From Polynucleobacter sp. 86C-FISCH (GTDB lineage Bacteria; Pseudomonadota; Gammaproteobacteria; Burkholderiales; Burkholderiaceae), in the NCBI RefSeq assembly GCF_018882415.1, contig NZ_JACVOL010000001.1, positions 520,253 to 584,252 on the forward strand: a stretch of DNA of 64,000 nucleotides, written 5' to 3'. The notes beneath the pieces were generated by a model. It was not told where the DNA came from. It saw only the letters and a program-made list of their open reading frames with translations, and did not search any database. The translations under genes and the position numbers were made by a program. Shown piece after piece: positions 13,592 to 40,528 of this stretch (the stretch's first letter is position 1; every line of letters starts with the position of its first letter).

Positions 13592-14140
13592 TTAGCGCTT
13601 GTAGAAGCTCAAGGTTACTTCGCCGAGCTCAATGCCAAACTTACTCATTTTGGCCTTATTGAGCATTACTTTAGGCGTAACTAGATACATCCAATCATTA
13701 AATTGAACGTTGTAAATAGTGCCATCAACTGGCAAAGCAAGGGTATAAGTCCAATTTAGGGCATTGCCAGACAATTGACCCTGCGCATCTCCCACTACGT
13801 CATCCGCCCTACCAATGTAATTTCCCGGGGACTGCTCTGTAAGTGTCCAAATACGCTTTTGCTTAGTGCCATCAGAATATTCAAAGCTTTCGTCCAGAGT
13901 GCCTACTTTTTTTCCATCAACCATGGTCCAGTTTGCTTTAATTAATACCGTAAAACGTTTCTTTACTTCACCACCACGGTCAGTAAAGATGCCATAGGCA
14001 TCGATCGTTCCGGAAAAATATTCACTCAAATCGAGGACAGGTTTTTCATTGGCGTATTGAGAAACTTGTGGCGTTGAGCATGACACTAAACATAAGCCAA
14101 AGAATACTAATGCGATGATTCGGGAAAGAAGAGATTTCAT
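13592..14140 (-). CDS. DUF3833 lipoprotein
   Basis: This 182-residue protein has a lipoprotein signal peptide with lipobox LVSC (cysteine near residue 21) and matches DUF3833, with motifs YFSGTIDAYGIFTDRGGEVKKRF and the C-terminal VMLNKAKMSKFGIELGEVT. DUF3833 genes in other proteobacteria commonly accompany cyclopropane-fatty-acid-type, DUF2878 and chalcone-isomerase-like genes in light or singlet-oxygen clusters (family knowledge). Here it follows a chalcone-isomerase-like gene by 3 bases, which supports an operon. Confidence 0.82.
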   Translation of the reverse strand: MKSLLSRIIALVFFGLCLVSCSTPQVSQYANEKPVLDLSEYFSGTIDAYGIFTDRGGEVKKRFTVLIKANWTMVDGKKVGTLDESFEYSDGTKQKRIWTLTEQSPGNYIGRADDVVGDAQGQLSGNALNWTYTLALPVDGTIYNVQFNDWMYLVTPKVMLNKAKMSKFGIELGEVTLSFYKR

Positions 14141-14143
14141 GGA

Positions 14144-14692
14144 TTAACAAGCCTCACTAAAAATGGGTGGAGGACAGGATTGTCCAAGTAACTCGGTACG
14201 CAACTTAGGGGCACTTGTTTTTGGGTCAAGCCAAATCCCAAAAAACGCCTTTGAAAATTCAGCCCCCGGTACTTGAGCGATCTGCTTGCCATCGTGATAA
14301 AAAGTTGTCCCTTGCTTGGGGGAATATATTGCTGTTAAGGTTTGTCCAGACTCAACATTCGGCAAGAAAGTAGTTAACTCTTTCCCCCAAAGCACTGCCT
14401 GAGCCTCTGGCACCCCAATACGCTTCATCTCTTCAGCGCTGCGATTAGCAATGGAAGCTCCTGAAAAAGATTTTTGGTAGCGTAAATTCAATGCGAAATC
14501 GGGCGAGGAAAGTGAGCCAACCCGATAAAACGCGGCATCATACACATGGAGACCAAACCAAGTAAGTCGACCACTACCCTGCAATTTTGCAGAACTGATA
14601 TTCGAAGGTAATTCAATTGGCTCGCGAGCAAAGCCATTTGATAAGAACACGGTCAACAAAGTCAGCACCAGAAATAGTGGTATTTTCTTCAT
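14144..14692 (-). CDS. Chalcone isomerase-like periplasmic protein
   Basis: This 182-residue protein has a signal peptide (about residues 1-22, ending GFA) and the bacterial chalcone-isomerase-like fold. Typical segments are LQGSGRLTWFGLHVYDAAFYR near the start and FSKAFFGIWLDPKT near the end. Plant-type flavonoid chemistry is unlikely in this setting; such proteins may bind fatty acids or lipids. Two cysteines occur at the extreme C-terminus. It overlaps the DUF393 gene by 4 bases and precedes the DUF3833 gene by 3. Confidence 0.82.
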   Translation of the reverse strand: MKKIPLFLVLTLLTVFLSNGFAREPIELPSNISSAKLQGSGRLTWFGLHVYDAAFYRVGSLSSPDFALNLRYQKSFSGASIANRSAEEMKRIGVPEAQAVLWGKELTTFLPNVESGQTLTAIYSPKQGTTFYHDGKQIAQVPGAEFSKAFFGIWLDPKTSAPKLRTELLGQSCPPPIFSEAC

Positions 14693-15099
14693 GAAGAGAT
14701 CGCTCCTGATTTGGACTTCACTAAACGAAGTGCGGCCGGCCCAAATAGACTAGAGATTGCATGTCTATTTTTAGCAAAAAATAGATATCCTAATTTTAAG
14801 AATGGCTGCAAAGACTTTCTTGAAAAGAACCAGGCAAGGCGCGGTAAATCCGCTCGGCGATAAGCCTCAGGAAATACAGCAACGCCTTGTATTAATTTGC
14901 CACTAGCAAATTGGCCATACATAGCTGCTAGTGCAGCTTCACATGAGACACCCACTTGTTGAGGGTCAAACCGCTCAGAATTAATGTCGACAAAACCCAA
15001 TAAGTTAGCTTGATTGCGTCCTGACAAAAAAAGAATCTCCGCCTGACAAAGTGGGCAAGCGCCATCGTAGAACAAAGTGAGTTTCTCTAGTTGAGTCAT
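14689..15099 (-). CDS. DCC1-like thiol-disulfide oxidoreductase family protein (DUF393)
   Basis: This 136-residue thioredoxin-like protein has the family hallmark FYDGACPLCQAEI (CXXC at about residues 15-18) and the conserved VDINSERFDPQ segment. A late aromatic segment reads AWFFSRKSLQPFLKLGYLFFAKNR. A thiol-disulfide role is inferred from the CXXC. It is the first gene of the three-gene DUF393/chalcone-isomerase-like/DUF3833 set. Confidence 0.85.
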   Translation of the reverse strand: MTQLEKLTLFYDGACPLCQAEILFLSGRNQANLLGFVDINSERFDPQQVGVSCEAALAAMYGQFASGKLIQGVAVFPEAYRRADLPRLAWFFSRKSLQPFLKLGYLFFAKNRHAISSLFGPAALRLVKSKSGAISS

Positions 15100-15160
15100 G
15101 GTTAAGCAAGTTTACGGCTTATTCAATAAACTGGTTGGCACTAATACTATTAAGGTTGTT

Positions 15161-26548: not shown

Positions 26549-28744
26549 TTAAAGACTCTTCTTGGTCCGAGCCTGATGCAGCTTTCTATAGCTGTCAATT
26601 AGGCGATGGTGCCTATCAAGTCCCTCTAACCGCATGCTAGTTGGCGTTAATCCGAAGAAGCGAACGCTGCCATCGATAGAGCCAAGCACGGCATCCATAC
26701 GAACATCACCATACATCCGGCGGAAGTTCACTTCGTAATCAGCCATTTCAAGCTCATCATCTAGTAAGACTTTCAAGGCCGCATCCATTGCTTGGTAAAA
26801 CAATTTGCGTTCGACCGTATTGTCGTTGTACTGCAGAAAGGCGCCTACTAAGTCATGCGCCTCTTCATACTGTTTTAAAGCGAGTTGAATCAGCAGCTTT
26901 AATTCAAGCACTGTTAACTGACCCCAAACGGTATTCTCATCAAACTCGATTCCGATGAGCGTAGCGATATCACCGTATTCATCAAGCTCATTATTTTCTA
27001 AGCGCTCGAGTAGCGATGTTAAGCAAGCGTCATCCAAGCGAGATAAATTCAGAATATCTTCACGGAATAACAATGCTTTGTTGGTGTTATCCCAGACAAG
27101 ATCTTCGATTGGGTAGACCTCAGAATATCCTGGCACCAAAATTCTGCAGGCAGTTGCCCCTAACTCGTCATATTCAGCTACATAGACTTCTTTACCAAGC
27201 TCTTTGAGAATGTCAAATAAAGTTTCGGCTTCTTTAGCATTGAAATCCTCACCCTTGCTCGAGAAATCCCAATCAACAAATTCATAATCGGATTTTGCGC
27301 TGAAGAAGCGCCAAGAAACGATGCCACTGGAGTCAATAAAGTGTTCTACAAAGTTATTAGGCTCAGTTACTGCTTCACTTGAAAATGTAGGTGGAGGCAA
27401 ATCATTCAAACCCTCCAAGCTACGTCCCTGCAATAACTCCGTCAGACTTCGCTCTAGAGCAACCTCTAAACTAGGGTGCGCACCAAAAGAGGCAAACACA
27501 CCACCCGTGCGCGGGTTCATCAAAGTGACACACATCACTGGGTAGATACCGCCAAGCGATGCATCCTTTACCAAAACCGGAAAGCCCTGATCTTCTAGAC
27601 TTTGTATACCCGCCAAAATGCCAGGATATCTAGCCAAGACTTCCTGCGGCACATCTGGAAGCGCTATTTCACTTTCCAGAATTTCTCGCTTAACTGCTCT
27701 CTCAAAGATTTCTGATAGACACTGAACTTGGGCTTCGGCAAGCGCATTACCTGCACTCATACCATTACTCACGAAGAGATTTTCAATCAAGTTCGACGGA
27801 AAATAGACTGTCTTACCATCAGATTGACGCACATAAGGCAATGAACAGATACCACGCTGCGCATTTCCAGAATTGGTATCCACCAAATTAGATGCGCGCA
27901 ACTCGCCGTCTGGGTTATAGATGTTTAGGCAGTACTCATCTAGAACTTCTGTCGGCAACGCATCCTTCTTGCCAGGCTTAAACCATTGCTCATTGGGGTA
28001 ATGCACAAATTCCGCATTCGCAATATCCTCACCCCAGTAAGCGCCCGCATAAAAATGGTTATTACTCAGACGCTCAATGTATTCGCCCAAAGCAGATGCC
28101 AGCGCACTCTCCTTGGTTGAGCCTTTGCCATTGGTAAAGCACATTGGTGAATGTGCATCACGTATATGCAGGGACCAGACATTGGGAATGAGATTGCGCC
28201 ATGAGGCGATTTCAATCTTGATGCCGAGGTTTGCGAGCAATGCCGACATATTGGCAATCGTTTCTTCCAAAGGAAGATCTTTACCAACAATATGTGTACT
28301 AGCGCCTGCATTTGGTTTTAGGGTCAGCAGACTCTGTGCATCGGCGTCTAGATTTGCGACCTCTTCAATAACAAAATCAGGTCCTTCCTGCACTACTTTC
28401 TTAACTGTGCAGCGCTCGATAGAACGTAATATACCTTGGCGGTCTGCAGCAGAAATATCTGCCGGCAATTCAACTTGAATCTTAAAGATCTGTTTGTAAC
28501 GATTTTCTGGGTCAACAATATTATTTTGCGAGAGGCGAATATTCTCTGTAGATAAATTACGAGTCTCGCAGTACAGCTTCACAAAGTAGGCAGCGCACAA
28601 CGCTGATGAAGCCAAGAAATAATCAAACGGTCCTGGCGCAGAACCATCACCCTTGTATCGAATAGGTTGATCGGCAATTACCGTAAAGTCATCGAACTTA
28701 GCTTCAAGACGCAGCTTGTCGAGAAAATTGACCTTAATTTCCAT
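26549..28744 (-). CDS. OsmC-YcaO fusion protein
   Basis: This 731-residue protein joins an N-terminal OsmC-like domain (about residues 1-135) to a YcaO domain (about 180-560) and a helical C-terminal part. C50 and C112 are placed as the peroxide-reactive cysteine pair of OsmC proteins. YcaO domains activate amide backbones with ATP; E. coli YcaO assists RimO in beta-methylthiolation of ribosomal protein S12. No precursor peptide, dehydrogenase or RimO gene lies nearby, so a housekeeping YcaO role is more likely than natural-product synthesis. I choose the ATG at 28744 rather than the TTG at 28768. Confidence 0.88.
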   Translation of the reverse strand: MEIKVNFLDKLRLEAKFDDFTVIADQPIRYKGDGSAPGPFDYFLASSALCAAYFVKLYCETRNLSTENIRLSQNNIVDPENRYKQIFKIQVELPADISAADRQGILRSIERCTVKKVVQEGPDFVIEEVANLDADAQSLLTLKPNAGASTHIVGKDLPLEETIANMSALLANLGIKIEIASWRNLIPNVWSLHIRDAHSPMCFTNGKGSTKESALASALGEYIERLSNNHFYAGAYWGEDIANAEFVHYPNEQWFKPGKKDALPTEVLDEYCLNIYNPDGELRASNLVDTNSGNAQRGICSLPYVRQSDGKTVYFPSNLIENLFVSNGMSAGNALAEAQVQCLSEIFERAVKREILESEIALPDVPQEVLARYPGILAGIQSLEDQGFPVLVKDASLGGIYPVMCVTLMNPRTGGVFASFGAHPSLEVALERSLTELLQGRSLEGLNDLPPPTFSSEAVTEPNNFVEHFIDSSGIVSWRFFSAKSDYEFVDWDFSSKGEDFNAKEAETLFDILKELGKEVYVAEYDELGATACRILVPGYSEVYPIEDLVWDNTNKALLFREDILNLSRLDDACLTSLLERLENNELDEYGDIATLIGIEFDENTVWGQLTVLELKLLIQLALKQYEEAHDLVGAFLQYNDNTVERKLFYQAMDAALKVLLDDELEMADYEVNFRRMYGDVRMDAVLGSIDGSVRFFGLTPTSMRLEGLDRHHRLIDSYRKLHQARTKKSL

Positions 28745-28837
28745 GGGAATGATTCCAAAATAGTGCAAATAATGATGTGAGCACCATTATCCATCGCAAT
28801 GTCATTCAGGCACTGGCGCTAGATCAAGTTACCTAAA

Positions 28838-29491
28838 TCAGTCCAGCAAATGACCAGTCTTTACAAAAATAGTGCAGCCTTCTTTACTAAAGGGCTGATG
28901 CAGGCTCATATGAGGACTTCTAATCCAGGAGCCAGCCGGGTAGCGCCCATGCTCATCTTCAAATACGCCATCCACTACAAAAATTTCCTCGCCACCATAA
29001 TGCTTGTGGGGATTGAAATAGGTTTGAGGCGCCCATCGCACTAAAGTCGATCCGCTACCCTGTGTCATTAAGGGCATGACATTGAGGCCGGGAACCATCC
29101 CCTGAAACCAAGGGGCAGTTTTCGTATTGACTATCTCTTGCTCGACTTGATCTGGGCCAAGGTGTCGCAACTTAACAAAAAGAGTGCAGCCAGACTGGCT
29201 GAATGGTGCATGTGAAGATCCAGGCGGGTTCATCATATAAGTGCCAGCAGGATAATCGCCTGTCTCGTCACTAAAGACGCCGTCTAAAACGAAGATCTCT
29301 TCACCAAATTCATGGGTATGCGTTTGAAATTTGGATCCCGGTTGATAGCGAACAATTGAGGTTGCCTTTGCTACCTCATCACCCATGCGATCAAGCATAC
29401 GTCTCTCTACCCCTGCCTCTGGGCTAGAAACCCAAGGTAGGTCATGGTGGTTAATGACAACTCTCTTACTGTAATCGGAGTGGATATTCAC
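28838..29491 (-). CDS. ChrR-like double-cupin protein
   Basis: This 217-residue protein holds two tandem cupin domains of the ChrR-cupin type. GEEIFVLDGVFSDETGDYPAG and GGEEIFVVDGVFEDEHGRYPAG are clearly repeats of one another. ChrR is the zinc anti-sigma factor of the RpoE singlet-oxygen response; its C-terminal half is such a cupin. Here the N-terminal zinc-binding anti-sigma domain (Hx3Cx2C) is absent and the cupin is doubled, so this is not a classical anti-sigma factor. The start is a GTG. It is divergent from the SDR/photolyase region. Confidence 0.82.
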   Translation of the reverse strand: MNIHSDYSKRVVINHHDLPWVSSPEAGVERRMLDRMGDEVAKATSIVRYQPGSKFQTHTHEFGEEIFVLDGVFSDETGDYPAGTYMMNPPGSSHAPFSQSGCTLFVKLRHLGPDQVEQEIVNTKTAPWFQGMVPGLNVMPLMTQGSGSTLVRWAPQTYFNPHKHYGGEEIFVVDGVFEDEHGRYPAGSWIRSPHMSLHQPFSKEGCTIFVKTGHLLD

Positions 29492-29642
29492 TTATTGCAT
29501 TTCTGATCTATAAACAGGAGTAAGAATAGCAAGCAAATGAAGGGTTTGCTTGAAAGAAAATTTTGCCGCGCACGCTCAGACGCGATCTGCGCTAAAGTCT
29601 CTTCAATCCATCCCATTTATTGAATTTCCTCAACAGAGCAAC

Positions 29643-30338
29643 ATGAGCTTACTTCCTAACCCCTTTCGTGCATTAGTTATTGGCTCTTCTGGAACCATAG
29701 GCTCTGCCTTCATGGATCTCTTAAAAGCTAACCCCGCATGCACAGAGGTTGTTGGCATTCATCGCCATTCTGAGTTTCCAATTGATTATCAAAATCTGGA
29801 ATCTATTGAATCCTGTGCAGCCGCACTTTCCCAGTTGGCACCTTTTCAACTCATCATTAATACCATCGGGGTTTTGCATACGAATAAGTGGATGCCTGAA
29901 AAAAGACTGGATGATCTCAATTCAGAACAGCTCATGGAACTCATGACAGTCAATGCGATTGGTCCGGCACTAACGATTCGTCACTTTTCAAAATTACTGG
30001 ATCCCAAAAATAGCATCATGGTGACTCTGTCAGCAAAAGTAGGCAGCATTGAAGATAACCGTCTTGGTGGTTGGTATAGCTATCGCGCCTCTAAGGCTGC
30101 ACTCAATATGTTGGTGAAGACAACATCGATCGAATGGGGACGCACAAAACCGAATACCGCATTAATCGCAATGCATCCCGGCACTGTGAATTCTAGACTC
30201 TCAAAGCCATTTCGTGGCGAGCAGATTGGCAGGCCTGCAGATCAAGCTGCAGCTGAGATGTTTAATGTGATTGAACGTCTTCAAAAAGAAGACACCGGAA
30301 GCTTTCTGACTTATTCGGGTGAAAAGCTGCCTTGGTAA
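29643..30338 (+). CDS. SDR family protein, C-factor-like
   Basis: This 231-residue short-chain dehydrogenase-like protein has the nucleotide motif GSSGTIG and the catalytic YSYRASK. The late MHPGTVNSRLSKPF segment is typical of the C-factor (CsgA-like) SDR group. I prefer the ATG at 29643, because the Rossmann fold begins about 10 residues later; a TTG at 29550 would add 31 residues without similarity to the family. In other proteobacteria this SDR type often sits beside photolyase and ChrR genes. Substrate unknown. Confidence 0.82.
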   Translation: MSLLPNPFRALVIGSSGTIGSAFMDLLKANPACTEVVGIHRHSEFPIDYQNLESIESCAAALSQLAPFQLIINTIGVLHTNKWMPEKRLDDLNSEQLMELMTVNAIGPALTIRHFSKLLDPKNSIMVTLSAKVGSIEDNRLGGWYSYRASKAALNMLVKTTSIEWGRTKPNTALIAMHPGTVNSRLSKPFRGEQIGRPADQAAAEMFNVIERLQKEDTGSFLTYSGEKLPW

Positions 30339-30365
30339 AGGAATAAACGCCCCCCCCTTTAAACT

Positions 30366-31625
30366 TTAGGGCGCATTTAACCACTTTGATCGATAAGTGC
30401 CATCAGGATCATGATCCTGAGCTTGCTTCTTCACATTAAATGGGCGCCCTCCGCGCGGATCTGTGCCTCGCCCTGCTATGTATAGCCAATTACCCTGGTT
30501 GCTATACACATCATAGTCAACCAACTGAGATTCAAACCAAGCAGCGCCAGCGCGCCAATCGCCTTTCATGTCATAAATCCAGTAGCTCGCCACTACTTGA
30601 CGCATACGATTGGATAAAAATCCGGTTTGTTGGAGCTCGCGCATGCCAGCATCAATAAAGTCATCTCCCGTAGAACCAGAACTCCATTGTTGAAATTTCT
30701 TTTCATTAAAACTATTGAGCTCTTTATCAATCAAACCTTGAGGTCGATAAAGCTTGCTCCCATACTTAAAGTGCAGAAAACGGAAATAGTCTCTCCACAA
30801 TAATTCAAACCACAGCCAATAAGTTCCGTCATTAGCGCCGTATGTTGACTCATAATTTTTTAGCTTCTGCACGATTGTTCTTGCCGAGCAACTGCCAAAA
30901 GCCAACCATGGAGAAAACTTACTGGAATAGTCCATACCGATTAATTGATTACGAGTTTGCTTGTAGGTATCTGGCAAGCGACGCTCAAAGTACTGATCTA
31001 GATGGGCTAAAGCACTCAGCTCTCCACCATTAAAAAGAGATTCGACTTGCTTGGGTAATAAATCTTCCTTTGGATTAGTCGGAATATTCATCAGTGGCAA
31101 TGGAGGAATGTGAGCTGGAGCAGAAATCGGCTCTGCATAGGAAAGATTTCTACGCTCAACCTCCTGTCGGAATTTAGTAAATACATCCGGCATCTCCTGC
31201 AAATCAAATGGCAAGTCCTTGGGATCAAGCATGCTTGATTGCCAAAATTGCCTGATATTGAAACCCAGATTCTTAATTACATCTACCTCTGCAAGTTCCT
31301 CTGGAGCTTGGATTTGCTCGCAATATATAGAGTCAAATGACACTTGCTCTCTTAGTGATTGAAAAACCTTTGATGGCTCACCACTGAGCTCTAGCAAATT
31401 AGAGCCCCTGGCAATTAATTGATGACGTATTTCATCTAACGATTGCTGTAAAAATTCTCTAGAGTGCTTGGCAAGTCGAGGAAATCCCCAGCTGGTTAAA
31501 CCATCATTGCTATCTGGATGAATATAGATTGGTAAAAGATGCTTGGCTGATGCGCATGCTTCCTTAAAGCCGGGGTTATCTTCCAATCGAAGATCATTTC
31601 TAAACCAATAGACGATGGTAGACAT
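30366..31625 (-). CDS. DASH-family cryptochrome/photolyase
   Basis: This 419-residue flavoprotein opens with WFRNDLRLEDNPGF, the photolyase N-terminal domain. It ends with GRGTDPRGGRPFNVKKQAQDHDPDGTY, the hallmark of the DASH subfamily. The FAD region includes FLSNRMRQVVASYWIYDMKGDWRAGAAWFES. DASH proteins repair cyclobutane dimers in single-stranded or looped DNA using blue light. It is slightly short for the subfamily. It converges with the SDR gene and starts 8 bases after the exonuclease-nuclease gene, so they probably share a transcript. Confidence 0.92.
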   Translation of the reverse strand: MSTIVYWFRNDLRLEDNPGFKEACASAKHLLPIYIHPDSNDGLTSWGFPRLAKHSREFLQQSLDEIRHQLIARGSNLLELSGEPSKVFQSLREQVSFDSIYCEQIQAPEELAEVDVIKNLGFNIRQFWQSSMLDPKDLPFDLQEMPDVFTKFRQEVERRNLSYAEPISAPAHIPPLPLMNIPTNPKEDLLPKQVESLFNGGELSALAHLDQYFERRLPDTYKQTRNQLIGMDYSSKFSPWLAFGSCSARTIVQKLKNYESTYGANDGTYWLWFELLWRDYFRFLHFKYGSKLYRPQGLIDKELNSFNEKKFQQWSSGSTGDDFIDAGMRELQQTGFLSNRMRQVVASYWIYDMKGDWRAGAAWFESQLVDYDVYSNQGNWLYIAGRGTDPRGGRPFNVKKQAQDHDPDGTYRSKWLNAP

Positions 31626-31633
31626 GGCGCTTC

Positions 31634-33028
31634 TTAACTAAGATGAATCACTTGGTTTTGATATTGTCCGGCTAGTGCTTTTTTAACGATCTTATAAATA
31701 TCAAGATCGAATTCAGCATCGCCAGCACTTTTGAGTTCAGTCAACTCATCCTCATTGATAGCGGTACCCAAGTAGCACCATTTATCCAAAACAATCATTT
31801 CTCCGTTGTCTTTGATGGCTATTGGGCCCTTGTAAGGCCAAACCTGCACCCTATACAACTCCATTGCCGTCCTTAATTGCAGATTATGCATTTCGGTAGG
31901 CATGATGCCAATGCATGCGCCACCGCATTGCTTTACTTGATATCCAAAGCAGGCTTTTCCATCAACCGCTTTTTCAAGCCCCAGCAATACTTCGCATAAG
32001 CGGTATTTTTTTGCAATCGCCTTTAGATAGGAGTTGGCCTCTCTTTTGTTGTAAAACAAACCAAAAAGATTGTCTTGAAGACCAGGCATGAGATCTTTGT
32101 GGTTCACAAGCGTTGGCTTTAGCGCCCCATTGGCATCTTTATCAAGGCTCCATGCGCAAAGATCTCTTGATCGACGAAGCTTTATATTCATACTGGGCAT
32201 GCGCTCTTTAATAAGCTTAGACTCCAAGATTAAAGCTCCTAGCTCTCCACTAGTTTCAATCCAGTCAATATCTCTTACCTGCAAAGATAATTTCATTTCC
32301 TTGCGCTGCGTTAACGAGCCTTGAAAGTGCCCCATCACTCTACTTCGCAGGGAAATACTCTTGCCAATATATAAAGGGGTTCTATTTTCTCCATAAAAGA
32401 TATAACACCCAGGCGCATCAGGTATTGAGTCAATTAATTCCTGATCGATATTCGGTGGCAGACTTGCATTTCCCACTAACTGATTCAGAGCCTCCAGCAA
32501 ACGCTCCTTACCAACTGCTCTCTCACAAATTTGCCAAAACTGAAAAAGTAAGTCTGCGTCGCCAAGCGCCCTATGTCTAGCACTGACAGTCAAACCATGC
32601 TCACGAATGATGGTATCTAGGTTGTGACGAGCTTGGTTAGGAAATAGGAGTCTTGAGAGTTTGACGGTACATAGGACCTTGGGCTTGAAATCCAAGCCTA
32701 TTCTTTTAAAAGAGGCCTTAATAAATCCATAATCAAAGCGCGCATTGTGGGCAACAAATATCTTACCTTCGAGCTCTGCCTTTAGGTCTCTGGCTATTTC
32801 TTCAAAGCCAGGTTTGTCAGACACCATTTGTGGGGAGATACCAGTGAGTCTTTGAATATTTTGCGGAATATAGACATGGGGGTTGATTAAGCTCTCCCAG
32901 ACAGCAACTCCGTTATTAGAAAGCGTTTTAATGCCTATTTCTGTAATGCGATCTCTGTCAAAATTCGAACCTGTTGTCTCGATATCAACAAAAGCAAGTG
33001 TTGGATAGTCGATCGATTGCTTATTCAT
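31634..33028 (-). CDS. DEDD exonuclease fused to a GIY-YIG nuclease
   Basis: This 464-residue protein combines a DnaQ-like 3'-5' exonuclease (DIETTG at residues 15-20, HNARFDY near 94-100, HRALGDADL near 152) with a UvrC-type GIY-YIG domain (CYIFYG...LYIGKS near 208-223). The layout is that of the Cho-like exonuclease family of proteobacteria. It would act in DNA excision repair or 3'-end trimming. It lies just upstream of the photolyase gene, so the pair forms a small repair cluster. Confidence 0.9.
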   Translation of the reverse strand: MNKQSIDYPTLAFVDIETTGSNFDRDRITEIGIKTLSNNGVAVWESLINPHVYIPQNIQRLTGISPQMVSDKPGFEEIARDLKAELEGKIFVAHNARFDYGFIKASFKRIGLDFKPKVLCTVKLSRLLFPNQARHNLDTIIREHGLTVSARHRALGDADLLFQFWQICERAVGKERLLEALNQLVGNASLPPNIDQELIDSIPDAPGCYIFYGENRTPLYIGKSISLRSRVMGHFQGSLTQRKEMKLSLQVRDIDWIETSGELGALILESKLIKERMPSMNIKLRRSRDLCAWSLDKDANGALKPTLVNHKDLMPGLQDNLFGLFYNKREANSYLKAIAKKYRLCEVLLGLEKAVDGKACFGYQVKQCGGACIGIMPTEMHNLQLRTAMELYRVQVWPYKGPIAIKDNGEMIVLDKWCYLGTAINEDELTELKSAGDAEFDLDIYKIVKKALAGQYQNQVIHLS

Positions 33029-33081
33029 AACATTAGAGAATCAGGCAATGAGAGGGTACTAGGCCCCCTTCAACCCAAGCT

Positions 33082-33651
33082 TTAACTTGGGCTGCGATCC
33101 AGAAAGTTTGCAAAGTCAAATACAGAATTAGGCCCACGCGGGACCTCTTCCACTTTTTTAAACTGCGCCTTCACCACTTTTTGAACCTCACCCTTTTGTC
33201 TTTTTTCTTTCTTAGAATCAAGAGGAGCATAAACAGTTCTCTCAGGTGCTTTTTTTATATCACTAAAGCTGGGCACATAATCTTTGATGGTAGATGCCAA
33301 GGTGACGTTGGCCATACAACCAAGCATGTAGGCCTCTAAGGATTGGTAAAGCTCTTTGGCAATATCGGATAACTCTACCTTACGCTTTTTAATTAGATTC
33401 ATGGCAAGCACGATATCTTTTATCGTAATCAAGCCAGGATCTTGAGAAAGTACATATCCGCCTCTTCGGCCCTTGGTGCCCTTTACAAACCCCGACTCCC
33501 TTAAGGGTCGCAATAAAAGTTCAATACGGCTAATTGATAGTTTTTGCCTTTTTGCAAGCTCAGGAACAGGCACTGGTTGGCCATTAACTGAATGGCTGGC
33601 TATGTCTACCAGAGTATTTAGAGCCGCTTTTGCTGCTTTAGTGAGGTCCAT
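33082..33651 (-). CDS. Rrf2-family-like transcriptional regulator without the iron-sulfur cysteines
   Basis: This 189-residue protein has an Rrf2-type winged helix: LTKAAKAALNTLVDIA, the helix-turn-helix ELAKRQKLSISRIELLLRPLRESGFVKGTKGRRGGY, then a dimer helix. Family members such as IscR bind a Fe-S cluster with three cysteines. Here only C112 is present in that area, so a cluster is unlikely. A basic, low-complexity C-terminus (about residues 140-175) is also unusual. It lies 53 bases upstream of the exonuclease gene on the same strand and may regulate that unit. Confidence 0.85.
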   Translation of the reverse strand: MDLTKAAKAALNTLVDIASHSVNGQPVPVPELAKRQKLSISRIELLLRPLRESGFVKGTKGRRGGYVLSQDPGLITIKDIVLAMNLIKKRKVELSDIAKELYQSLEAYMLGCMANVTLASTIKDYVPSFSDIKKAPERTVYAPLDSKKEKRQKGEVQKVVKAQFKKVEEVPRGPNSVFDFANFLDRSPS

Positions 33652-33740
33652 GTTGAACTTAGCAAAGATGTTAGATTGGGTCTAGTATCAGACTGATTCC
33701 AACTTTTTGCTGCAGCGCACTTCTTAACCCTATTTGTCCC

Positions 33741-34232
33741 ATGGTTGAAAGCACTAAAGACCAATACCAATTTGCTAATCGATTTTTGCGATTCATCTCC
33801 CACCTATTGTTTGGAGCAAGCATTGCGCAATTTTTTAGCTGCTTAAGCGCCTATTTGTTCATTGGTGATGCGCAAGCAGCAGGCATGCTAGCGCACATAC
33901 TGATACAGCATTTGTCTTATTACTTATTAGGCTGCACTTTTATAACCTTAAGCCTTGCCAATGTTCTTATCAAAAGAGGGCAGCATGGCCTCAGGGTAAT
34001 TCGTATTCCCGCTCTTTTGCTGATCTTAGTTACCACAATCAGCAGCTTTCTACTGATACCCCGTATGGATTACTTGCGAGAGACCGCACTACTGGATGGC
34101 ATGCCGGTAGCACTCTCTCCGTTTGCTAGTTATTTTGCGATTTTGAATGGGCTGACCTTTGCCCTGGTAATCACTCAGATAATTTGCAGTGGATTAATGG
34201 CGTGGCGCCTTAGCAAACCACGATCAACCTAG
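33741..34232 (+). CDS. Four-helix membrane protein of unknown function (DUF4149-like)
   Basis: This 163-residue protein has four hydrophobic segments at about residues 18-40, 52-75, 88-108 and 130-155. The loop LIPRMDYLRETALLDGMPVALSPFASYFAILNG recalls DUF4149 membrane proteins, but the similarity is loose. There is no signal peptide beyond the first helix and no catalytic motif. It is divergent from the Rrf2-like gene and its last 9 bases overlap the convergent DUF2244 gene. Function unknown. Confidence 0.65.
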   Translation: MVESTKDQYQFANRFLRFISHLLFGASIAQFFSCLSAYLFIGDAQAAGMLAHILIQHLSYYLLGCTFITLSLANVLIKRGQHGLRVIRIPALLLILVTTISSFLLIPRMDYLRETALLDGMPVALSPFASYFAILNGLTFALVITQIICSGLMAWRLSKPRST

Positions 34233-37948: not shown

Positions 37949-40528
37949 TCAATCTTCTTCGAGGAAGGTCTTGAGTTTGTCGCTACGGCTCGGATGACGC
38001 ATTTTGCGGAGGGCCTTAGCTTCAATTTGACGGATACGCTCACGAGTAACGTCAAACTGTTTGCCAACCTCTTCAAGAGTGTGATCAGTACTCATCTCAA
38101 CACCAAAGCGCATACGCAATACTTTTGCTTCGCGTGGTGTCAATGAATCCAGAACATCTTTCACAACATCGCGCATAGAGTCATGCAATGCCGCTTCAGC
38201 TGGAGCCAAGGTATTGCCGTCTTCAATGAAATCACCCAAATGAGAATCTTCATCGTCACCAATTGGTGTCTCCATAGAGATAGGCTCTTTAGCAATCTTC
38301 ATGATCTTACGGATCTTGTCTTCAGGAATCTCCATCTTCAGCGCCAAGGTTGCAGCATCTGGTTCATGACCAGTCTCTTGCAAAATTTGACGGCTGATAC
38401 GGTTCATCTTGTTGATCGTCTCAATCATGTGAACTGGGATACGGATCGTACGTGCTTGGTCAGCAATAGAGCGAGTAATCGCCTGACGAATCCACCATGT
38501 TGCATAAGTAGAGAACTTATAACCACGACGGTATTCAAACTTATCTACCGCCTTCATCAAACCGATGTTGCCTTCTTGAATCAAATCCAAGAACTGCAAG
38601 CCACGGTTGGTGTATTTCTTAGCAATCGAGATTACCAAACGTAAGTTAGCTACAGTCATCTCACGTTTTGCTTCGCGGGCACGCTTCTCGCCAGCGATCA
38701 TTTGCTTGTTAACTTCTTTTAATTCTGGCAACGGAATAACGACATTCTTCTGAATATCGATCAACTTCTGTTGTAGCTCTTGAATAGCTGGAACGTTACG
38801 TTGCAAGAGTGCACTGTATGGCTTGTTCTCTTTGAGCAACTTCTCAGTCCAAGTCAAATTCATAGACATCTTAGGGAAGTCTTTTAATACTTCACCACGA
38901 TTAACACCTACTTTGTCCACCAACAAACTCACAATACCGCGCTCAAGCTTCCATACCTGGTCTACTTGTGAGCGCATGGTGTCGCATAACTTCTCAACAC
39001 TTTTCGCTGTTAAGCGGAAACCAAGCAATTCAGCACGAATTGCATCTTGCGCCTTCACGTATGCTGGGCAGTTGTAACCATCTTTATCAAATGCACGGCG
39101 CATCTTGTCAGCTTGTGTACGAACGATTGCAAACTTCTCTAAAGAGATTTGCTTTAATTCTTCCAATTGCTTAGCGTTTGCTGTTGCAGCACCGCCACCG
39201 CCACCGCCGCCTTCATCTTCTTCGCCGCCTTCTTCACCTTCTTCAGCGTCCGGATCGACCTCTGGCTCTTCAGGTCCGAGCTTAATATCTTCTGCATTTG
39301 GATCAACCAAACCATCCACAAACTGGTCGATCTCCATCTCGCCACTAGCGATCTTGTCAACGTTGCTCAGAATCTCGGCAATCGTTACAGGGCAAGCAGC
39401 CAAAGCCATCACCATGTCTTTGAGACCAGCTTCGATCTTCTTCGCAATCACGATCTCGCCTTCGCGAGTCAGCAAGTCAACCGTACCCATTTCACGCATA
39501 TACATACGTACTGGATCAGTAGTGCGTCCGAATTCTGAATCAACAGTAGATAAAGCAGCCTCAGCCTCTTCTTCAGCTTCTTCTTCAGAAGCTGCGGCAG
39601 CTGTATTGTCAGAAAGGATTAATGTTTCTGCATCAGGGGCTTGTTCGTAAACAGTAATGCCGATGTCATTGAGCAAGCTGATCAAAGTTTCCAATGCATC
39701 CGCATCGGACAACTCGTCAGACATCACGTCATTCATCTCGCCATGGGTTAAGTAACCCTTGGACATACCCATCTTGATCAAAGTCTTCAAGCGAGCACGG
39801 CGCAACTCTTGTTGTTCTTCAGTTCCTAACTGTTGTGCTGCAAATTCTTTTAAGAGCGCCTTCTCTTTCGCCTTACGCTCACGCGCTTTTTGGCGATCCG
39901 TTAATACTGGTTCAGCAGCTTCAGCAGGTGCATCTGCTTTCGCTTTGCGACCGCGCTTCTTCTCTTCCTCAACAACTACAGGCGCCTCTAGTTCTGCAGT
40001 CTTAGCTTTTTTGCCTTTGACTTCTTTTGCATCTTTGGTTTCTTTTGCTGCCTTTGTTTCTTTAACTGGCTCAGCCTTAGGTGCTGCTACAGCTTTACCT
40101 TTTTTAACTGGTTCAACCTTGACTTCTGCTTTGGCAGATTTCGCGGGAGCTTTTACAACTGGTTTTGCTGCAGCCTTTACTGGTTTAGCTGGTGCTTTTG
40201 CAACAGCCTTAACTGGTTTGGCTGGCGCCTTAACAACTGCTTTTACTGGCTTAGCAGGTGTTTTTGCTTTTGGAGCTGGTTTTGCAGCAGCTTTTACTGG
40301 CTTAGCTGGAGCTTTTACTTTTGGAGCTGGTTTAGCTGGAGCCTTTGCTTTAGCTGCAGGTTTTGCGGCTGGTTTAGCAGCGGTTTTTACTGGCTTAGCA
40401 GGTGTTTTTGCTTTTGGAGCTGGTTTAGCTGGCGCCTTTGCTTTAGCAGCAGGTTTTGTAGCAGCCTTTACTGGCTTAGCAGGTGTTTTTGCTTTTGGAG
40501 CTGGTTTTTTGGTCTTGGTATTAGGCAT
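37949..40528 (-). CDS. rpoD: RNA polymerase primary sigma factor RpoD with a long Lys/Ala/Pro tail
   Basis: This 859-residue primary sigma factor directs RNA polymerase to housekeeping promoters. Region 1.1 begins near residue 235. Other landmarks are [11 protein letters not shown] (region 1.2), the acidic non-conserved insert with a run of glycines, the region 2 motif [34 protein letters not shown], and region 4 ending [20 protein letters not shown]. Residues 1 to about 205 are a K/A/P-rich repeat tail like histone H1 or AlgP, far longer than E. coli RpoD (613). The tail is encoded by repetitive DNA. Confidence 0.97.
40245..40507. repeat. In-gene direct repeats encoding the rpoD N-terminal tail
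   Basis: A 38-base unit occurs identically three times, beginning at 40245, 40389 and 40470 (spacings 144 and 81 bases, both multiples of three). Many partial copies lie between. It encodes [12 protein letters not shown]-type units, so copy changes would keep the reading frame. Confidence 0.85.

Follow-up and report, generated by a model that had tools for sequence, protein, structure and literature searches.

The window analysed here comprises 64,000 nucleotides of Polynucleobacter sp. 86C-FISCH, whose assembly totals 1,988,466 bases in 3 contigs. Around its midpoint lie genes for a double cupin protein (bicupin), an SDR and a DASH-type cryptochrome/photolyase, and profile searches with Pfam and NCBIfam confirmed the families that the initial annotation had assigned to these three reading frames (Table 1). 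The DASH protein scores 469 bits against TIGR02765 and thereby passes the DASH cryptochrome family cut-off of 317. For the SDR the best NCBIfam model is PRK09009, whose cut-off of 330 bits it misses with 186; the label 'C-factor-like' attached to this protein derives from no search. The likelier start of the frame is the ATG at residue 31. The genes for the Rrf2-type regulator, the nuclease and DASH all point leftward, the SDR runs rightward toward DASH and the bicupin leftward from the SDR-bicupin spacer, so the trio consists of three units (nuclease-DASH, SDR and bicupin) and forms no single operon. Co-transcription of the nuclease gene with DASH is likely given their shared strand and the 8-base gap. 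A scan of positions 28700-33800 for the sigma-70 consensus gave 7 sites versus 9.2 in shuffles. On the far side of the bicupin the window encodes an OsmC-YcaO fusion protein.

Table 1. Features of the window and related loci of the same genome (C1, genome coordinates; all others, window positions).
Feature	Position	Strand	Remarks
DUF3833 protein	13592-14140	-	Module member
Chalcone_3 (chalcone-isomerase-like)	14144-14692	-	Module member
DCC1-like protein	14689-15099	-	First gene of DCC1-Chalcone_3-DUF3833 run
GCCGTAAACTTG	15107-15118	-	Two-mismatch copy of GTCTTARACTTG, just before DCC1
OsmC-YcaO fusion protein	26549-28768	-	Downstream of bicupin; TIGR03549, 1436 bits
Bicupin	28838-29491	-	217 aa; two Cupin_7 (ChrR cupin-like) stretches by Pfam
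TTGCTATTCTT, promoter-like element	29522-29532	-	41 bases before bicupin start
CAAGCAAA-N7-TTTGCTTG, inverted repeat	29530-29552	-	Overlaps promoter-like element
SDR	29550-30338	+	262 aa; adh_short; PRK09009-like; convergent with DASH
DASH-type cryptochrome/photolyase	30366-31625	-	419 aa; DNA_photolyase and FAD_binding_7
RNase_T exonuclease and GIY-YIG protein	31634-33028	-	8 bases upstream of DASH
Rrf2-type regulator	33082-33651	-	Upstream of RNase_T/GIY-YIG gene
Sigma-70 factor	37949-40528		859 aa
DUF2805-DPRP (photolyase-related)	C1:430520-432315
GPx-FAD oxidoreductase-DUF1365-Cfa-like-SDR2	C1:822252-827044		Adjacent genes
Second photolyase	C1:1174093

The surroundings of DUF3833 were fetched for 45 genomes of the genus (G000, G017 and G028 were left out though they matched). 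In nine of them (G031, G012, G020, G047, G021, G044, G018, G008 and G040) the run DPRP-DUF3833-Chalcone_3-DCC1-DUF2805 is followed by an SDR and DUF2237, and DASH comes next in all but G020. Across the 45 loci an SDR lies in the DUF3833 stretch at 21 (five at only 45-56% identity) and a DASH or DASH-like gene at 11 (three at 28-29%); at the 24 loci with no SDR in the fetched stretch, some stretches are short. Where DASH and DUF3833 share a contig they lie at most 5 kb apart in 11 of 18 genomes, three of these having the DASH-like gene, and at most 25 kb apart in 15. The SDR tree places the bicupin-adjacent SDRs in two groups of nine and five rows, each supported at 100/99; the five-row group, which holds the SDR of the window, nests among DUF3833-adjacent SDRs with weaker intervening forks (88/72 to 97/86), indicating that the SDR probably moved at least once. 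The DASH tree separates two clades by location, beside the nuclease or beside DUF3833, both at 100/99, and the separation of the two locations is therefore old.

The window carries its own DUF3833 and Chalcone_3 genes, which Pfam confirmed where they had been annotated, and the suggested search of the rest of the genome for cfa and DUF1365 recovered both, adjoining one another in an operon 290 kb from the DUF3833 region. By Pfam family, the FAD oxidoreductase (FADox) of this operon may be read as UfaD-like, the DUF1365 protein as UfaO-like and the Cfa-like protein as UfaM-like, where we take RSP2144, RSP1091 and RSP1090 to be members of those families. The order GPx-FADox-DUF1365-Cfa-SDR2 recurs in 39 of 40 congener DUF1365 loci, the exception, L227, being only 4 kb long and lacking GPx and FADox. 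Among the 40, DPRP stands beside the operon in six, SnoaL in six and the regulator LitR in four of the six DPRP loci; in these four, about 0.9 kb lies between GPx and FADox. DUF3833 and DUF1365 are within 25 kb of each other in 1 of 23 genomes and 130-490 kb apart in the others. That one congener, G032, holds a single run, FADox-DUF1365-Cfa-SDR2-SnoaL-SDR-DPRP-DUF2805-DUF2878-DUF3833. As SDR and DASH stand beside DUF3833-Chalcone_3-DCC1 in congeners while the remainder lies 290 kb away, the module is genuine and dispersed, being split over at least four places in the genome of the window. Broken matches to the photolyase and DUF3833 in G017 (C1:179027-179557 and 1150154-1150650) and to DPRP in G023 (C1:1118118-1118784) suggest that module genes decay in some species.

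Outside the genus, 11 genomes contain both DUF1365 and DUF3833; in 9 the two genes are at most 5 kb apart, and in 2 they fall on different contigs. In 15 stretches from 14 such genomes (Pfam on representatives) the usual run is FADox-DUF1365-Cfa, joined by some of Chalcone_3, an MFS protein, DUF3833, SDR2 and SnoaL, and sometimes by FolE2. One family of neighbours, recognised as a cluster of ORFs from nine of these stretches, is LitR (MerR_1, B12-binding_2 and B12-binding). By tblastn, 11 of the 15 non-genus genomes of the order with DUF1365 have LitR no more than 7 kb from that gene, 8 of them with at least 46% identity (the query among these) and 3 only at 26-28%; tblastn found no LitR in G052, G061 and G066, and the first two share a protein, TetR-like by eye, in its place. 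Within the genus LitR occurs in 7 of 49 genomes, at most 4.1 kb from DUF1365 in all six that have both, and the two proteins inspected keep W-x9-EH and ExHxxG, which we take to be the B12 ligands of CarH/LitR. LitR, which belongs to a light-switch family, thus accompanies the set in some Polynucleobacter as well as in other families of Burkholderiales. The genome of the window gave no LitR match at E <= 0.001, nor did 41 other genus genomes, some of the 42 being incomplete assemblies; the B12-binding matches of the window's genome fall only in frames of 490-923 aa, in agreement with its absence. Since these genes also have LitR as a neighbour outside the genus, the simplest reading is that the 42 genomes lost it.

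The initial annotation had compared the cluster with RpoE-ChrR regulons. The gene set it described is real, but in the order and in part of the genus LitR is the regulator that stands beside it. The genome of the window yielded no rpoE-chrR pair: its three Sigma70_r2 matches are unaccompanied by ChrR, and the bicupin is the sole match to the ChrR anti-sigma model TIGR02451, below the cut-off; the expectation that regulation differs from RpoE-ChrR thus held. The one ECF-like sigma factor is located with a DUF3619 gene. Only one of the Sigma70_r2 matches is inside the window, the 859-aa sigma-70 that we presume to be RpoD. As far as the searches show, regulation in this lineage would be neither RpoE-ChrR nor LitR.

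A 12-bp element, GTCTTARACTTG, recurs before several pieces of the set. Upstream regions of GPx are conserved around AATGTCTTAGACTTGG and those of DUF2805 and DCC1 around AAGTCTTAAACTTGC. Exact GTCTTARACTTG gives 47 non-duplicate sites in 3.04 Mb of fetched loci, most of them selected for their module genes, and the element itself was spotted by eye after the fact: 28 sites precede GPx, 16 DUF2805 and 2 DCC1, and the last (locus L240) is just before DUF2805-DPRP of the window's genome. As the GPx sites are orthologous to one another, and likewise the DUF2805/DCC1 sites, independent occurrences number two or three. Allowing two mismatches, GTCTTARACTTG is found in 33 of 45 GPx, 19 of 20 DUF2805 and 19 of 29 DCC1 upstream regions. 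In 569 kb of the window's genome there are 2 exact copies, each preceding a module operon, and 3 further sites, with one mismatch, at other places. At two-mismatch stringency the window has 2 matches versus 9.2 expected; GCCGTAAACTTG, not significant alone, counts only through its position, the same place as the better copies of relatives. In the four LitR loci, the spacer between LitR and GPx contains TGTCYTAGAC sites, which the core of GTCTTARACTTG in its GPx form, GTC-N-TA-GAC, resembles, and GTCNTAGAC precedes GPx in all four LitR loci and in 28 of 36 LitR-less loci. No LitR-like sites were seen by eye before Chalcone_3, DUF3833, DUF2878 or SDR in LitR-bearing genomes, and GTCTTARACTTG is unlike the LitR consensus published for Pseudomonas, T(G/A)TACA-N12-TGTA(C/T)A. 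The element may belong to a promoter instead of being an operator; either way, its distribution points to a further regulator or promoter type that may still couple several pieces. A more specific scenario, in which the LitR targets of most Polynucleobacter passed after LitR loss to a new regulator or promoter type reading GTCTTARACTTG, so that this light-stress regulon changed its master and kept its operator, with the bicupin as one candidate sensor, seems to us rather doubtful.

The bicupin differs from its two companions. Both of its cupins carry the full HxHxxxE...H metal site with ligand spacing identical to that of ChrR, whose zinc ligands are H141, H143, E147 and H177 according to the accessible text of PMC6852236. 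H58, H60, E64, H94, H162, H164 and H198 are kept in 80 of 80 rows and E168 in 31 of 31, in alignments gathered with peptide patterns covering part of those same residues. The match to TIGR02451 (54 bits, cut-off 124.5) begins only at model position 112, so the protein is without the zinc anti-sigma domain, and its family represents a naturally doubled form of the ChrR metal domain. An AlphaFold model from 31 sequences has a mean pLDDT of 86.3 (five models span 63.6-86.3), and its best structural match is the Marinobacter bicupin 3o14 (Z 26.9, rmsd 2.4, 213 aligned, 44% identity), the nearest solved relative, with ChrR itself at only E 0.045. Deposited as anti-ECF sigma factor ChrR, 3o14 is a bicupin of similar length and fold, but in an alignment by eye its second cupin is without the HxHxxxE ligands that the window's protein keeps. 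The next matches (Z 21.7 and below) are again bicupins and include ureidoglycine aminohydrolase and quercetin, salicylate and putative dioxygenases. Together with the two intact metal sites, these enzymes make it an evenly balanced proposition that the protein is simply a cytosolic metal-dependent small-molecule oxygenase of catabolic regions, unrelated to light, although a common fold alone shows no function. Its neighbours elsewhere, among them TctC receptors, an FAA hydrolase and a lipase-like gene, are consistent with such a role, but TctC genes are very common in Burkholderiales, so their presence says little.

The bicupin also has upstream sequence of its own. TTGNTATKCTT occurs in 44 of 79 bicupin upstream regions, 36-54 bases before the start, with no occurrence in 20 shuffles of each; we take the window's copy, TTGCTATTCTT, to be a promoter-like element of the extended -10 type. 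The motif was not found upstream of GPx (27), DCC1 (27), Chalcone_3 (24), DUF3833 (36), SDR (42), DASH (24), DUF2237 (11), qor (25) or RpoD (1). The suggested common promoter motif for the trio therefore did not emerge, the bicupin element being absent before SDR and DASH and GTCTTARACTTG absent before all three genes. The inverted repeat CAAGCAAA-N7-TTTGCTTG is a possible operator. A hairpin and T run, judged by eye, often stand just before the promoter-like element in unrelated neighbourhoods (L041, L050, L064, L077, L092 and others), and no conserved sequence, such as a cassette end, was seen by eye 3' of the gene.

Bicupin neighbourhoods vary widely among loci. Module genes occur in the fetched flanks at 22 of the 33 loci from named Polynucleobacter and at 5 of the 47 remaining loci, some of which come from unnamed assemblies that may be Polynucleobacter; among loci longer than 18 kb the counts are 21 of 31 and 0 of 13. 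The proposal that the families of the trio form one set across relatives thus holds for SDR and DASH, found with DUF3833, and is not supported for the bicupin. In the 49 genus genomes, 21 have bicupin and DASH, 17 bicupin only, 2 DASH only and 9 neither; we do not rely on this co-occurrence, its Fisher p of 0.04 ignoring descent. The bicupin, encoded in named Polynucleobacter relatives at up to 97% identity, is most likely a metal-dependent oxygenase-like protein that moves independently of the set, of which it would be a separate, weak and unproven member; a stand-alone sensor is less likely. The variable surroundings, the division of the trio into three units and two loci (L035 and L036) where DASH and the adjoining exonuclease/GIY-YIG gene are both absent while Rrf2, SDR and bicupin stay would also fit an assembly of the trio merely through high gene turnover between conserved flanks, with no functional link here. 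We consider this unlikely, since SDR and DASH recur jointly beside DUF3833 in eight congeners and, in 13 of the 16 genus genomes with both genes on one contig, no more than 25 kb separates the bicupin from DASH. Very improbable is a ChrR descendant that shed its anti-sigma domain, senses singlet oxygen for another partner and controls the module: Cupin_7 homology, the ChrR-like ligand spacing in both domains and the rank of furan fatty acid genes among core RpoE-ChrR targets in other proteobacteria (accessible text of PMC6852236) are outweighed by the missing above-cut-off ChrR match, the DUF3619 company of the sole ECF-like sigma factor, the long loci free of module linkage outside named Polynucleobacter and the closer kinship to 3o14. 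As side observations, Polynucleobacter sp. Latsch14-2 carries a bicupin at each of two loci (L033 and L087), 97% and 84% identical to the window's, and genes that we presume to be EgtB/EgtD-like and AlkB-type lie with DUF427 near the bicupin in L040, L044, L054, L089 and L102, L040 and similar loci also having an amine-oxidase-type flavoprotein.

We therefore favour, with a probability of roughly 0.68, the reading that SDR and DASH have been displaced from a conserved light or photo-oxidative-stress set, in a lineage that lost LitR and split the set, this loss and splitting being its most likely history. Judged by their family, DASH, DPRP and the second photolyase would carry out light-driven repair of UV lesions. 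SDR, Chalcone_3, the DCC1-like protein and DUF3833 may serve lipid or redox modification, judging by their gene company, and another regulator or promoter type would couple several scattered pieces through GTCTTARACTTG, presumably in response to light or singlet oxygen. The FADox/DUF1365/Cfa trio would probably, as its characterised relatives do, make furan fatty acids from membrane fatty acids, these families being described as furan fatty acid makers in the available portion of PMC7380195. If this reading is correct, a photoprotection gene set outlives the loss of its photoreceptor, GTCTTARACTTG offers a bait for the replacement regulator, and the DUF3833, Chalcone_3, DCC1-like and DUF2805 proteins become candidate photo-stress genes. 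Members of Polynucleobacter are common in sunlit fresh water.

Other bacteria have been described with this gene set; what is new, as far as our literature search goes, is that it is dispersed here, that LitR is missing and that an element is common to several pieces. That search found no paper joining LitR, photolyase, cyclopropane and cobalamin, none on ChrR with bicupin or on Polynucleobacter with furan fatty acids, and, for two or more of DUF3833, DUF2878 and DUF1365, only work on Aeromonas riboflavin; four papers mention both Polynucleobacter and photolyase. The light-inducible sets under LitR, PplR and PmlR in Pseudomonas hold phrB, an SDR, an FAD oxidoreductase, the Cfa-like ufaM, cryB and folE, and their regulators are class II LitR proteins with LOV proteins and another binding site (accessible parts of PMC9758184). 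The target families (photolyase, cryptochrome, SDR, FAD oxidoreductase and UfaM-like) are present in the window's genome, which, unlike Pseudomonas, has no LitR gene and a scattered set. The RpoE-ChrR (ECF11) singlet-oxygen regulon shares the Cfa, FAD oxidoreductase and DUF1365 families and a ChrR-type cupin (accessible text of PMC6852236), whereas here the regulatory pair and the anti-sigma domain are missing. Likened by Pfam family, the CMAS methyltransferase, amine-oxidase-type flavoprotein and DUF1365 protein of the UfaM-UfaD-UfaO pathway, as set out in the available portion of PMC7380195, are adjacent here too.
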